Below are positions 50,867 to 55,767 of a stretch of 64,000 bases of DNA, piece by piece; within the stretch, counting starts at the first letter, position 1, and the number at the start of each line of letters is the position of its first letter. The stretch lies in assembly GCF_023983475.1 (NCBI RefSeq), contig NZ_CP092712.1:372001-436000 (forward strand), written 5' to 3'. The position numbers and the translations under genes were made by a program. A model generated the notes under the pieces. That model had not been told where the DNA came from. It saw nothing but the letters and a program-made list of their open reading frames with translations, and made no database searches. This stretch comes from Aliivibrio fischeri ATCC 7744 = JCM 18803 = DSM 507 (GTDB lineage: Bacteria > Pseudomonadota > Gammaproteobacteria > Enterobacterales > Vibrionaceae).

Positions 50867-52312
50867 ATGAGTTTGCAAGAAGTAGAACAATCCTTATTGA
50901 GTCAAGCAGGGATCGGTCAGCAGGAACTGTCTCAGACCTTAAGCACCATCGCAAAACGAGACGTAGACTACGCTGATATCTACTTTCAATCATGTTGGCA
51001 TGAGTCATTGGTACTTGAAGACAGTATTATTAAAGACGGGTCTTTTAATATAGATCGTGGTGTAGGTATTCGAGCTGTTGCTGGAGAAAAAACAGGGTTT
51101 GCTTATTCAGATCAGATTAACCTTGAAGCATTAACTCAGAGTGCTAAAGCGGCTCGTGGTATCGTTCAGCAAGGTGGTGAAGGTAAAGTTAAGGCATTTT
51201 CATCGCAGTCTATTCCTCAATTTTATCAGCCTGTAAATCCGTTAAATAGCTTAGATAAGCAACAGAAGATCGCATTGCTTGAAGAGATCGACGCTTATAT
51301 TCGTGCGAAAGAACCGCTAGTTCAAGAAGTGTCTGCAAGCATAAGTGGTGTTTATGAGCAAATGCTTGTTGCAGCTTTAGATGGTACCTATGCTGCCGAT
51401 ATTCGTCCATTGGTACGTCTTTCTATTAGCGTATTAGTTCAGCGTGGTGATAAGCGTGAACGTGGTAGCGCTGGTGGTGGTGGCCGCTATGGTTATGATT
51501 ATTTCTTAACGGAAGTAAATGGTAAATCTATTGCACTAGAGTTTGCTGATGAGGCGATTCGCCAAGCCTTAGTTAATCTTGATGCTGACGCAGCACCTGC
51601 TGGTATGATGCCTGTGGTTCTTGGTTCTGGTTGGCCAGGGGTTTTATTGCATGAAGCAGTAGGACACGGTCTTGAAGGTGACTTTAACCGTAAAGGTTCG
51701 TCAGTATTTGCTGGCAAAGTTGGTGAGAAAGTAACGTCTTCTGTATGCACTATTGTTGACGATGGCACTATGCTTGATCGCCGTGGTTCATTAAATGTCG
51801 ATGATGAAGGTGTTCCTGGGCAATACAATACACTAATCGAAAATGGTGTATTAAAAGGCTACATGCAGGATAAGCTTAATGCTCGATTAATGGGTGTTGC
51901 ACCTACAGGTAATGGCCGTCGTGAGTCTTACGCACATTTACCAATGCCTCGTATGACGAATACTTATATGCTGCCTGGTGAGTATGCACCTGAAGAAATC
52001 ATCTCAACAGTTAAAAAAGGTATTTATGCACCTAATTTTGGTGGTGGCCAAGTAGATATTACCTCTGGTAAGTTTGTTTTCTCAGCATCAGAAGCATATT
52101 TAATTGAAGATGGTAAAATTACTCGCCCAGTAAAAGGGGCAACATTAATTGGTTCTGGCATTGAAGCAATGCAGCAAATCTCGATGGTTGGTAATGATTT
52201 ATCACTCGATCGTGGTGTTGGTGTATGTGGCAAAGCTGGTCAGAGCGTACCTGTTGGAGTTGGTCAACCAACGCTTAAACTAGATGCTTTAACGGTTGGT
52301 GGTACAGAGTAA
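50867..52312 (+). CDS. tldD: Metalloprotease TldD
   Basis: A 481-aa zinc protease of the TldD/TldE heterodimer, which degrades unfolded peptides, matures microcin B17 and removes the antitoxin CcdA in E. coli. The HExxH-like zinc motif is [18 protein letters not shown] (about residue 260), and the third ligand region and the [10 protein letters not shown] motif follow. The start [11 protein letters not shown] and the ending lie where expected. Its partner TldE (PmbA) is encoded 700 bases downstream but is broken by an insertion sequence, so this subunit may be without its partner in this strain. Confidence 0.95.
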
Positions 52313-52929: not shown

Positions 52930-53489
52930 GATCTTCATTCTTTAATGGGTGATTGACTCTATTTTAGCAAGATAAATGAATAATTGGGCGCAAATTTATC
53001 ACATAGAATGTTATTCTAGTAAAAATGTATCTATTTAGTCAGATGTTATGGGCGCAAAACAGCAAATGATGAATCAAAAAATTGAACTCGAAGCAGCGGT
53101 AGCTAAAGCTTTAGACATGGCGACACAGCATGCAAGTGCAGCAGAAGTTGCTATTACAAAAACGACAGGCATTAGTGTATCAACACTTATGGGTGAGGTT
53201 GAGAATGTTGAATTTAACCGTGATGGTGCGTTAGGCATCACTGTATACCGTGGTCATCGTAAAGGCAGCGCATCAACATCTGATCTAAGTGATAAAGCGA
53301 TTCAACAAACGGTTGCTGCAGCACTTGATATTGCAAACTACACATCAGAAGACCCGTTTTCAGGTCCAGCGCCAAAAGAATTAATGGCGAAAAATATTCC
53401 TGATTTGGATTTATTTCACCCAGATGAGCCAGAGCCAGATTATGCCGCACAAAAAGCCATTGAAGCTGAGCAAGCGGCTTTAGAGTACC

Positions 53490-53492
53490 ACT
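53490..53492. repeat. Target-site duplication ACT, left copy
   Basis: ACT stands immediately before the IS and again at 54803-54805 immediately after it; one copy is required to restore the pmbA frame. Confidence 0.9.
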
Positions 53493-53513
53493 TGTCTCGT
53501 CCTGAAATGTGTT
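53493..53513 (+). repeat. Left terminal inverted repeat of the IS
   Basis: It begins TGTCTCGTCCTGAAAT and matches the right end at 18 of 21 positions, the first 11 perfectly. Confidence 0.9.
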
Positions 53514-53533
53514 TACACATTTAGGACTTTTAT

Positions 53534-53932
53534 ATGACAAATCAAGAAAAAACAAAGAATAAGCGAACTCAACGCGATTATTCATTAGGCTTTAAATTGC
53601 AGCTTGTTGCCGCTATAGAAAAAGGCGATATGACCTATAAGCAAGCTCAAAACATTTATGGCATTCAAGGTCGATCTACCGTACTTACTTGGTTAAGAAA
53701 ACACGGTAAGATGGACTGGTCTCAATCACCTAAGATTATTATGCCTAAATCCCCGAAAGCGAAAGAATCGCCTGCACAAAAAATTAAACGTTTAGAGCGA
53801 GAGCTTGATGATGAAAGAATGCGTAATTTATTACTTAATGAAGTAGTGAATATCATGGACGCAGAACATGGTGCAGGCCTTAGAAAAAAGTATATTGCCA
53901 AGGAGCAAGAAGTCTTCAAAAGCAGAAAATGA
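53534..53932 (+). CDS. IS3-family OrfA (DNA-binding protein)
   Basis: A 132-aa protein with an N-terminal helix-turn-helix of the transposase_8/HTH-21 kind (DYSLGFKLQLVAAIEKGDMTYKQAQNIYGIQGRSTVLTWLRKHG). A C-terminal coiled coil follows (AQKIKRLERELDDERMRNLLLNEVVNIM) that probably serves dimer formation. It binds the element's ends and usually acts either alone as a regulator or fused to OrfB. It ends inside the start of orfB. Confidence 0.92.
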   Translation: MTNQEKTKNKRTQRDYSLGFKLQLVAAIEKGDMTYKQAQNIYGIQGRSTVLTWLRKHGKMDWSQSPKIIMPKSPKAKESPAQKIKRLERELDDERMRNLLLNEVVNIMDAEHGAGLRKKYIAKEQEVFKSRK

Positions 53933-54762
53933 TCAGCTTAGAGCGAGCTAGTCAGCTACTTGGCATTACAAGACAATGTATATACCAACAAGAACGTAGA
54001 GCTCTGAAACGTGCCGTTGAACTTTCACCGGTTAAAAATATGGTGCAAGAAATTCGTCGATATATGCCTCGTATTGGAGGTAAAAAATTATATTTTTTAC
54101 TTAAGCCCAAATTCATCACTCATGGCATAAAGTTAGGCAGAGATAACTTTTTTTCCTATTTAAGAAATGAGTGCTTATTAGTAAAACCTAAACGAAGTTA
54201 TACAAAAACTACCTATAGTAAGCATTGGATGAAAAAACATCCTAATTTACTTAAAGAAGTAACACCTCAAGCATCTGAAGAGGTTTTTGTTAGTGATATC
54301 ACTTACGTTCAATCACAAAAAGGTATTCATTATTTATCTTTAGTAACAGATGCTTATAGTCGAAAGATAATGGGATATGAATTAAGTGATGAAATGAAAG
54401 CTACTGATGTAGTCAAAGCTCTTGATATGGCGATAGATAGCCGTCAATATCAAAGGAGTACGATTCATCATTCAGACCGAGGATTACAGTATTGTTCAAA
54501 GGTTTATCAGGAAAAATTGAATAAAAATGATATTAAGCCATCAATGACGGATGGTTATGATTGCTATCAAAATGCATTAGCAGAGCGAATAAATGGGATA
54601 CTTAAACAAGAGTTTCTTTTGTATGACTGTAAAGATTTAGAGGAGTTAAGGCATTTAGTTGAAGAATCTATTTTTATTTATAATGAAATGCGGCCACATT
54701 TAAGCTTGGGAATGAGTACACCAAATCAAGTACACAAAAAAGCCAAGTGCGTACGCACTTAG
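53929..54762 (+). CDS. IS3-family OrfB transposase (DDE)
   Basis: A 277-aa integrase-core transposase. The HTH-like start is SLERASQLLGITRQCIYQQERR. The DDE residues are visible: D in EEVFVSDITYVQ, D in STIHHSDRGLQYCS and E in NALAERINGILKQEF, followed by the IS3-type YNEMRPHLSLGMSTPNQVH. It starts at ATGA overlapping the orfA stop, in the -1 frame. Many IS3 elements make an OrfAB fusion by -1 slippage; the A-rich run just before the overlap (AGCAGAAAATGA) could permit this, but reinitiation at the ATG is equally possible. Confidence 0.95.
   Translation: MISLERASQLLGITRQCIYQQERRALKRAVELSPVKNMVQEIRRYMPRIGGKKLYFLLKPKFITHGIKLGRDNFFSYLRNECLLVKPKRSYTKTTYSKHWMKKHPNLLKEVTPQASEEVFVSDITYVQSQKGIHYLSLVTDAYSRKIMGYELSDEMKATDVVKALDMAIDSRQYQRSTIHHSDRGLQYCSKVYQEKLNKNDIKPSMTDGYDCYQNALAERINGILKQEFLLYDCKDLEELRHLVEESIFIYNEMRPHLSLGMSTPNQVHKKAKCVRT
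54745..54760. repeat. Perfect 16-base palindrome at the end of orfB
   Basis: AAGTGCGTACGCACTT lies over the orfB stop codon region, extended imperfectly by AGC...GCT. It could act as a hairpin that ends or stabilises the transposase mRNA, or blocks transcription entering from outside. Confidence 0.6.
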
Positions 54763-54781
54763 CTTTCAATTAAAAATCGTC

Positions 54782-54802
54782 AACGTATTTTAGGACGAGA
54801 CA
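54782..54802 (-). repeat. Right terminal inverted repeat of the IS
   Basis: Read on the minus strand it begins TGTCTCGTCCTAAAAT. Differences from the left end are at positions 12, 17 and 18. Confidence 0.9.
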
Positions 54803-54805
54803 ACT
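54803..54805. repeat. Target-site duplication ACT, right copy
   Basis: Second copy of the 3-base duplication, in direct orientation, at the right border of the element. Confidence 0.9.
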
Positions 54806-55728
54806 CATCAATTAAGCAAAGCGACGGTGCTAGCTACGATAGTCATTATGGCATTAAAGTATATGGTAACAGTCATGGTATGTTGGCAAGTTACCCTTCA
54901 AGTCGTCAAAGTATCAGTTGTAGTGTGATTGGTGTTGATAAAAATGGCGATATGGAACGTGATTATAGCTACACCGTTGCTCGTCATCGTGATGATTTAT
55001 GGGATGCTAAAAAAGTAGGTTTAGAAGCTGCAAAACGCACAGTAAGTCGTTTAGATGCTAAAAAGCTAGATACTATGAAGGTACCTGTAATGTTTGCTGC
55101 TGACGTTGCTACAGGCTTATTAGGGCACTTAGTTATGGCGATTAGTGGTGCTAACTTATACCGTAAATCGACATTTATGCTTGATAAGTTAAATGAGAAG
55201 ATTTTACCTGAATGGTTTAACGTAAGTGAGCGTCCACATATTTTAAAAGGACTGGCAAGTAGTCCATTTGATAGTGAAGGATTATACACTCAAGACCGTG
55301 AAATCATTACCGATGGTGTATTAGCTACGTATCTACTAACTAGCTATGCTGCACGTAAATTAAACATGACACCAACAGGCCATGCCGGTGGTATCCATAA
55401 CTGGTTTGTTAAATCTACAGGTCAAAGCTTTGAGCAAATGCTGAATACCATGGGTACAGGTCTTTTAGTGACAGAGCTTATGGGACAAGGTGTGAATACG
55501 GTAACGGGTGATTACTCTCGTGGAGCAGCAGGTTTTTGGGTTGAGAATGGTGAAATTCAATATCCGGTCTCTGAAATTACCATTGCGGGTAACCTTGCTG
55601 ACATGTATCACAATATTGTTGCTGTAGGTAATGATGTAGAAACACGCTCGCAAATTCAAACGGGTTCTATTTTAATTGAATCAATGAAGATTGCTGGTCA
55701 GTAGTCGTAATACGAATAAAGCATAAAT

Positions 55729-55767
55729 AAAAAAGCGCGCAATCATTAAATGAGAGCGCGCTTTTTT
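55729..55767. terminator. Convergent terminator pmbA / mgtE
   Basis: GCGCGC / GCGCGC with an inner TCAT/ATGA pairing is flanked by six A and six T. It lies between the ends of pmbA and mgtE. Confidence 0.9.

Follow-up and report, generated by a model that had tools for sequence, protein, structure and literature searches.

A recently multiplied IS3-family element, associated with terminator-like sites, interrupts pmbA (tldE) in Aliivibrio fischeri

Three insertion sequences (IS) of the IS3 family, IS1397, ISKpn1 and ISPsy8, are described as targeting REP palindromes (PMC1525189, available part). Class C (group IIC) introns are reported to insert downstream of Rho-independent terminators, which has been read as a form of self-regulation limiting their proliferation (PMC3522654, available part). 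The element analyzed here resembles the former as an IS3-family element choosing extragenic palindromic sequences. However, IS1397, ISKpn1 and ISPsy8 target REP, whereas the present IS, the flanks of which were scored for terminators, is associated with terminator-like sites, 10 to 14 bp outside the palindrome arm and in one orientation. With class C introns it shares the placement behind Rho-independent terminators, but these introns are ribozyme retroelements, whereas the IS is a DNA transposon of the DDE type, bounded by inverted repeats and flanked by a duplication of 3 bp.

The gene that drew attention to this element encodes one half of TldD/TldE, a widely conserved two-part protease. 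In Escherichia coli, TldD and TldE are both essential for protease activity, and tld mutants resist CcdB (PMC5810440, available part). The E. coli complex (PDB 5nj5) is a close counterpart, as PmbA of a relative with an intact gene matches 5nj5 chain B (E value of 6.9e-186). It differs in that one subunit gene is broken in the DNA studied here.

Interruption of pmbA

The stretch analyzed (the window) comprises 64,000 nucleotides (C1:372001-436000) of the 4.50-Mb, two-contig genome of A. fischeri ATCC 7744. In this window, pmbA is split by a 1,310-bp IS3-family element at 53493-54802, with ACT duplicated on both sides. The features of the locus are as follows.

50867..52312, + strand: tldD, intact partner gene; 481-codon ORF (481 aa) with all three domains
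53048..53492, + strand: pmbA 5' piece; 148 codons plus one base; PmbA_TldD_1st domain
53490..53492, no strand: left ACT copy of the 3-bp duplication
53493..54802, + strand: IS3-family insertion sequence; 1,310 bp; terminal inverted repeats TGTCTCGTCCT
53534..53932, + strand: orfA of the IS; 132 aa; IS3 transposase model E value of 1.8e-10, below its cut-off
53929..54762, + strand: orfB of the IS; 277 aa; DDE transposase in the -1 frame relative to orfA
54803..54805, no strand: right ACT copy of the 3-bp duplication
54803..55704, + strand: pmbA 3' piece; ATG-led ORF at 54880-55704 (274 aa)
55729..55767, no strand: inverted repeat AAAAAAGCGCGC...GCGCGCTTTTTT behind pmbA, its natural terminator

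The first-pass annotation had described pmbA as knocked out by a recent IS3-family insertion with both element ends and a 3-base duplication visible, and each of these points is borne out. The element is bounded by TGTCTCGTCCTG... and ...AGGACGAGACA, ACT occurs at 53490-53492 and 54803-54805, and PmbA/TldE is no longer encoded in one unbroken frame. Read on into the IS, the 5' frame stops after 10 foreign codons (ORF 53048-53524). Its predicted repair also holds: with one ACT counted, 151 and 298 codons are open on the two sides of the insertion site, and the empty site, with a single ACT and an unbroken 447-codon ORF, is found in A. fischeri emors.2.1 (L003) and in a second relative, G003 (L119).

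A domain profile search places part of the second PmbA/TldD domain, and the third, in the 3' piece. With the NCBIfam PmbA model NF008268, this piece alone scores 526.2 bits, over the cut-off of 438, and the 5' piece scores 233.1 bits. Both reading frames are open, so that two separately made pieces could be imagined to keep PmbA working. This is hardly credible, as the ATG-led 3' ORF begins partway through the central domain (at position 54 of a 109-position profile) and the nearest plus-strand promoter-like site (54343-54371) lies about 430 bp upstream of the right IS end. Within the genome, the PF01523 profile matches only tldD and the interrupted pmbA, and no second pmbA was found; the full-length tldD is indeed left without an intact partner, as had been annotated. 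By analogy with E. coli, the strain would lack TldD/TldE proteolysis, TldD alone presumably being inactive.

Judged by the 3' piece of pmbA, A. fischeri emors.2.1 is the closest relative with a name, at 100% identity (rounded) over 274 residues and 95.8 to 96.4% over the neighboring DNA. The comparison with other genomes that had been proposed as a check showed full-length pmbA in all 13 other Aliivibrio genomes searched; this and the lack of a second copy are both the opposite of what the annotation had named as evidence against it. Full-length tldD is present in 13 of 14 Aliivibrio genomes, that of the window included. Across the Vibrionaceae, some pmbA match occurs in all 217 genomes, and the following six stand out by best score and pattern among the matches listed, a basis on which smaller lesions elsewhere could be missed.

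G000: the pmbA insertion of the window
G025, G050 and G083: pmbA matches in pieces
G114: one in-frame TAG in pmbA
G014: only a 24%-identical relative of pmbA

Genomes with odd match counts (e.g., G145 and G158) lay outside the closer reading. Two Vibrionaceae genomes of only 1.0 to 1.1 Mb, G192 and G193, keep both genes at full length (L178, L180, L195 and L196), and the tldD/pmbA pair is therefore strongly retained.

In G003, a 1-bp deletion in a G-run, immediately ahead of the HExxxH motif, splits tldD (L119:4773-6217); pmbA of this genome is intact, and the genes adjoining tldD are open. This may be a mirror image of the window, reflecting either a real loss or a sequencing error.

Copies of the element and their targets

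The element has the features of the IS3 family. Its orfB encodes an IS3-type DDE transposase (NCBIfam transpos_IS3, 255.4 bits against a cut-off of 160; Pfam rve), the two ORFs overlap with orfB in the -1 frame as judged from the coordinates, and the TG...CA terminal inverted repeats are accompanied by a short target duplication (3 bp at 30 of 33 copies). A programmed frameshift is annotated in an E. coli relative of the IS. A group IIC intron, which would carry a reverse transcriptase and a ribozyme, does not fit the ORFs, both of which match IS3 transposase models. No IS names were found in the available part of the A. salmonicida genome paper.

End-pattern searches of the genome revealed 33 full copies plus one extra right end. 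Thirty-one of these copies are byte-identical over 1,310 bp; the other two, L174 and L176, measure 1,311 bp, and L176 is 97% identical to the element. The 3-bp duplication was present at 27 of 30 copies in the first set and at the three copies added later. The other 13 Aliivibrio genomes together hold one full-length copy (G005, 94%) and fragments in four more. Given this near absence elsewhere and the identity of 31 of the 33 copies, the IS has multiplied very recently in this lineage, with pmbA as one landing place, in line with the recent date assigned to the insertion by the first-pass annotation. An assembly artefact is unlikely, because the element is present at 33 different places in a two-contig assembly, 30 of them with a 3-bp duplication.

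The copies without matching 3-bp flanks (L080, L081 and L093) are among the identical ones, which points to deletion, or to recombination of one copy with another, once they had inserted. The extra right end (G000:C1:709973-709994) has one mismatch and no full copy, and lies 46 bp from the full copy at 710040.

The burst bears on whether the loss of pmbA was itself selected, the target motif being incidental and the loss of TldD/TldE bringing an advantage. Such an advantage would fit the split tldD of G003 and the CcdB resistance of E. coli tld mutants (PMC5810440, available part). However, the change in G003, located in a G-run, could be an error of sequencing; all 13 other Aliivibrio genomes and the two 1.0- to 1.1-Mb genomes retain what would be lost (pmbA in the former, tldD and pmbA in the latter); and the IS burst accounts for the hit without selection. 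We consider a selected loss very improbable.

When all copies are oriented alike, the majority of left flanks close with an inverted repeat rich in G+C and then a T-run, the form of an intrinsic terminator. This was scored with a hairpin rule (a 47-nt fold of -11 kcal/mol or lower and at least 5 T in positions -15 to -6), which 25 of 33 left flanks pass, as opposed to 1 of 33 right flanks, 113 of 12,514 window positions (0.9%) and 93 of 3,988 positions outside long ORFs (2.3%). Two further copies, L099 and L100, have hairpins of -11.6 and -17.4 kcal/mol and fail for fewer T. The mean fold energy of the left flanks is -16.4 kcal/mol, versus -5.7 kcal/mol for 990 control stretches. A strict perfect-hairpin rule (18/33 left, 1/33 right) was set aside because it misses stems with a mismatch, and the tolerant rule with its own control was preferred.

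A second, arm rule required GSCTTT with its complement 3 to 25 bp before it, within 120 bp of the element. AAAGSC...GSCTTT arms occur to the left of 23 of 33 copies, always 10 to 14 bp from the element, and to the right of none. The IS is thus associated with terminator-like sites at a fixed spacing and in a fixed orientation.

Targeting could in principle be random, with selection keeping copies in harmless places behind genes and terminators being merely where the survivors are found. Most copies do lie outside long ORFs, but the one-sided arms at 10 to 14 bp (23/33 versus 0/33) and the rarity of rule-passing positions outside long ORFs (2.3%) are not accounted for. Since distance and orientation are fixed, selection for harmless sites is insufficient, and this explanation is very improbable.

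The pmbA site and other in-gene insertions

Besides pmbA, four genes are clearly hit by the IS, and the arms of the pmbA target and these four sites are listed below.

53453..53481, + strand: target arms in pmbA, AAAGCC (53453-53458), 17 bp, GGCTTT (53476-53481); 11 bp before the insertion point
L083:1009-3788, antisense: pyruvate kinase gene; arms AAAGGC-19-GCCTTT, 11 bp
L096:702-3670, antisense: trehalose-6-phosphate hydrolase-like gene; arms absent
L076:381-3019, antisense: SIR2-domain gene with weak similarity to defence proteins; arms absent
L085:695-4311, antisense: OmpA-domain gene; arms absent

In pmbA the arms stand at their usual spacing around a sequence without a hairpin interior, and the site has too few T to pass the hairpin rule. 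The arm rule, which was framed only after the pmbA site had been seen, is met at 43 of 125,142 window positions. These fall in nine places: four loci, each on both strands, account for eight, and the pmbA site is the ninth. One of the four loci was checked by eye and is the terminator behind pmbA (55729..55767), which was flagged on both strands in two target scans and missed by a third, separate scan. It is an unoccupied site of the kind usually used by the IS. Scored over 48 bp with a matrix built from the other 32 sites, the pmbA site ranks in the top 5.9% of all positions in the window, and in the top 1.2% when only positions -20 to -8, the near arm, are used. The position-weight matrix was discarded as proof of a good target in pmbA; the score is not high, and other positions inside pmbA score higher.

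Of the five clear insertions into genes, three (L076, L085 and L096) have no arms. Four of the five copies (L076, L083, L085 and L096) are antisense to the interrupted gene, and only the pyruvate kinase site among these four has arms; it is also the one site inside a gene among the 25 left flanks that pass the hairpin rule. In addition to these five, the copy L080 is located at the start of a methyltransferase-domain ORF or immediately ahead of it.

These sites bear on two other ways of reaching a terminator. The terminator palindrome could extrude a hairpin or cruciform in the DNA, and the transposase could recognize this structure, as proposed for other hairpin-seeking elements. Palindrome seeking is known in the IS3 family (PMC1525189, available part), and 24 of the 25 rule-passing left sites are strong hairpins adjoining the element. 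Yet at the sites in pmbA and the pyruvate kinase gene only the 6-bp arms are left, around 17 to 19 unpaired bases, and there is almost no fold at L076, L080 and L087 (-1.0, -3.1 and 0.0 kcal/mol), which makes recognition of an extruded structure unlikely. Alternatively, insertion could be coupled to transcription termination, the transposase following or meeting RNA polymerase stalled at the terminator. The left end of the IS does face the T-run side of the hairpin, but coupling is quite unlikely when four of the five copies in long ORFs, including the arm-bearing pyruvate kinase site, are antisense to the gene.

The best reading is that the pmbA insertion is an off-target hit by a terminator-homing IS at a partial mimic of a stop signal. 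More fully, the IS3 element that broke pmbA, and that had just multiplied, would be one that prefers terminators and would have hit pmbA as a rare in-gene site with arms, a reading to which we assign a probability of roughly 0.75. In an AAAGSC...GSCTTT repeat, the IS would insert at a fixed 10 to 14 bp beyond the GSCTTT arm, its left end facing that arm. In this genome such arms would form the outside of intrinsic (Rho-independent) terminators, which is why most copies would land behind genes. The stretch in pmbA, with the same arms at the usual spacing and no hairpin interior, would then permit a rare in-gene hit. What is recognized would be the arms as DNA, and not a hairpin in RNA, with the transposase or the part of OrfA that binds DNA as the reader. 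Terminator homing as proposed here is read from the sequences of insertion sites.

Related elements and significance

Outside the window's genome, 19 full-length rows were available, with two candidates scored per genome. Twelve could be examined, six being without a locus and one (L105) without a left flank. All 12 of these full-length Vibrionaceae relatives, from eleven other genomes and 64 to 72% identical, pass the hairpin rule, and 11 of them have a 3-bp duplication. Relatives without a left end (L106-L108, L220, L222, L224-L227 and L229-L231) were dropped, as were L219 (match begins at base 6), L228 (an internal fragment) and L105 (element at the very start of its contig).

Among the other relatives scored, 3 of 13 pass (15 of 25 overall). 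These are a Pseudoalteromonas plasmid, an Acinetobacter plasmid and an E. coli copy behind a tRNA-Pro gene (L234, L236 and L240). The ten that fail include L221 (a left-end fragment in a Vibrionaceae genome), a Vibrio harveyi plasmid, four E. coli copies, three elements from other gammaproteobacterial families and a Flavobacterium plasmid that misses the rule by 0.1 kcal/mol and has a clear hairpin and T-run. Some match occurs in 890 of 5,426 E. coli genomes; the five copies scored (one on a plasmid and four of the 20 chromosomal matches listed) gave one pass and four failures, of which L238 is ambiguous to the eye. A class-level search of 369 genomes found three elements outside the Vibrionaceae (64 to 67% identity), none at a terminator, and a wider scope of terminator homing was rejected on these three. 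The terminator habit belongs to the close group of this IS and fades beyond it.

In E. coli VTB97379v (L240:1313-1432), the IS relative lies directly behind the tRNA-Pro gene, at its terminator.

Extended to the group, our tentative proposal, slightly short of even odds, is that a clade of IS3 transposases reads the outer terminator arms in DNA as a spaced dyad and joins the left end a fixed distance downstream. Gene ends would then be a safe harbor for dozens of identical copies with few gene losses, and pmbA would be the price of a chance dyad. Class C group II introns are already known to use this strategy; for IS3 elements, no account of it was found in the part of the open-access literature available to us, and it is apparently new for the IS3 group, although it may have been described before.

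Because terminators occur throughout bacterial genomes, an element homing to them would have a large supply of mostly harmless sites, with shielding from outside transcription. The cost would be in-gene hits such as those in the pmbA, pyruvate kinase, trehalose-6-phosphate hydrolase-like, SIR2-domain and OmpA-domain genes. Target choice by an IS3 transposase becomes testable with simple target plasmids, and the pmbA insertion provides a natural strain with TldD but no intact TldE.
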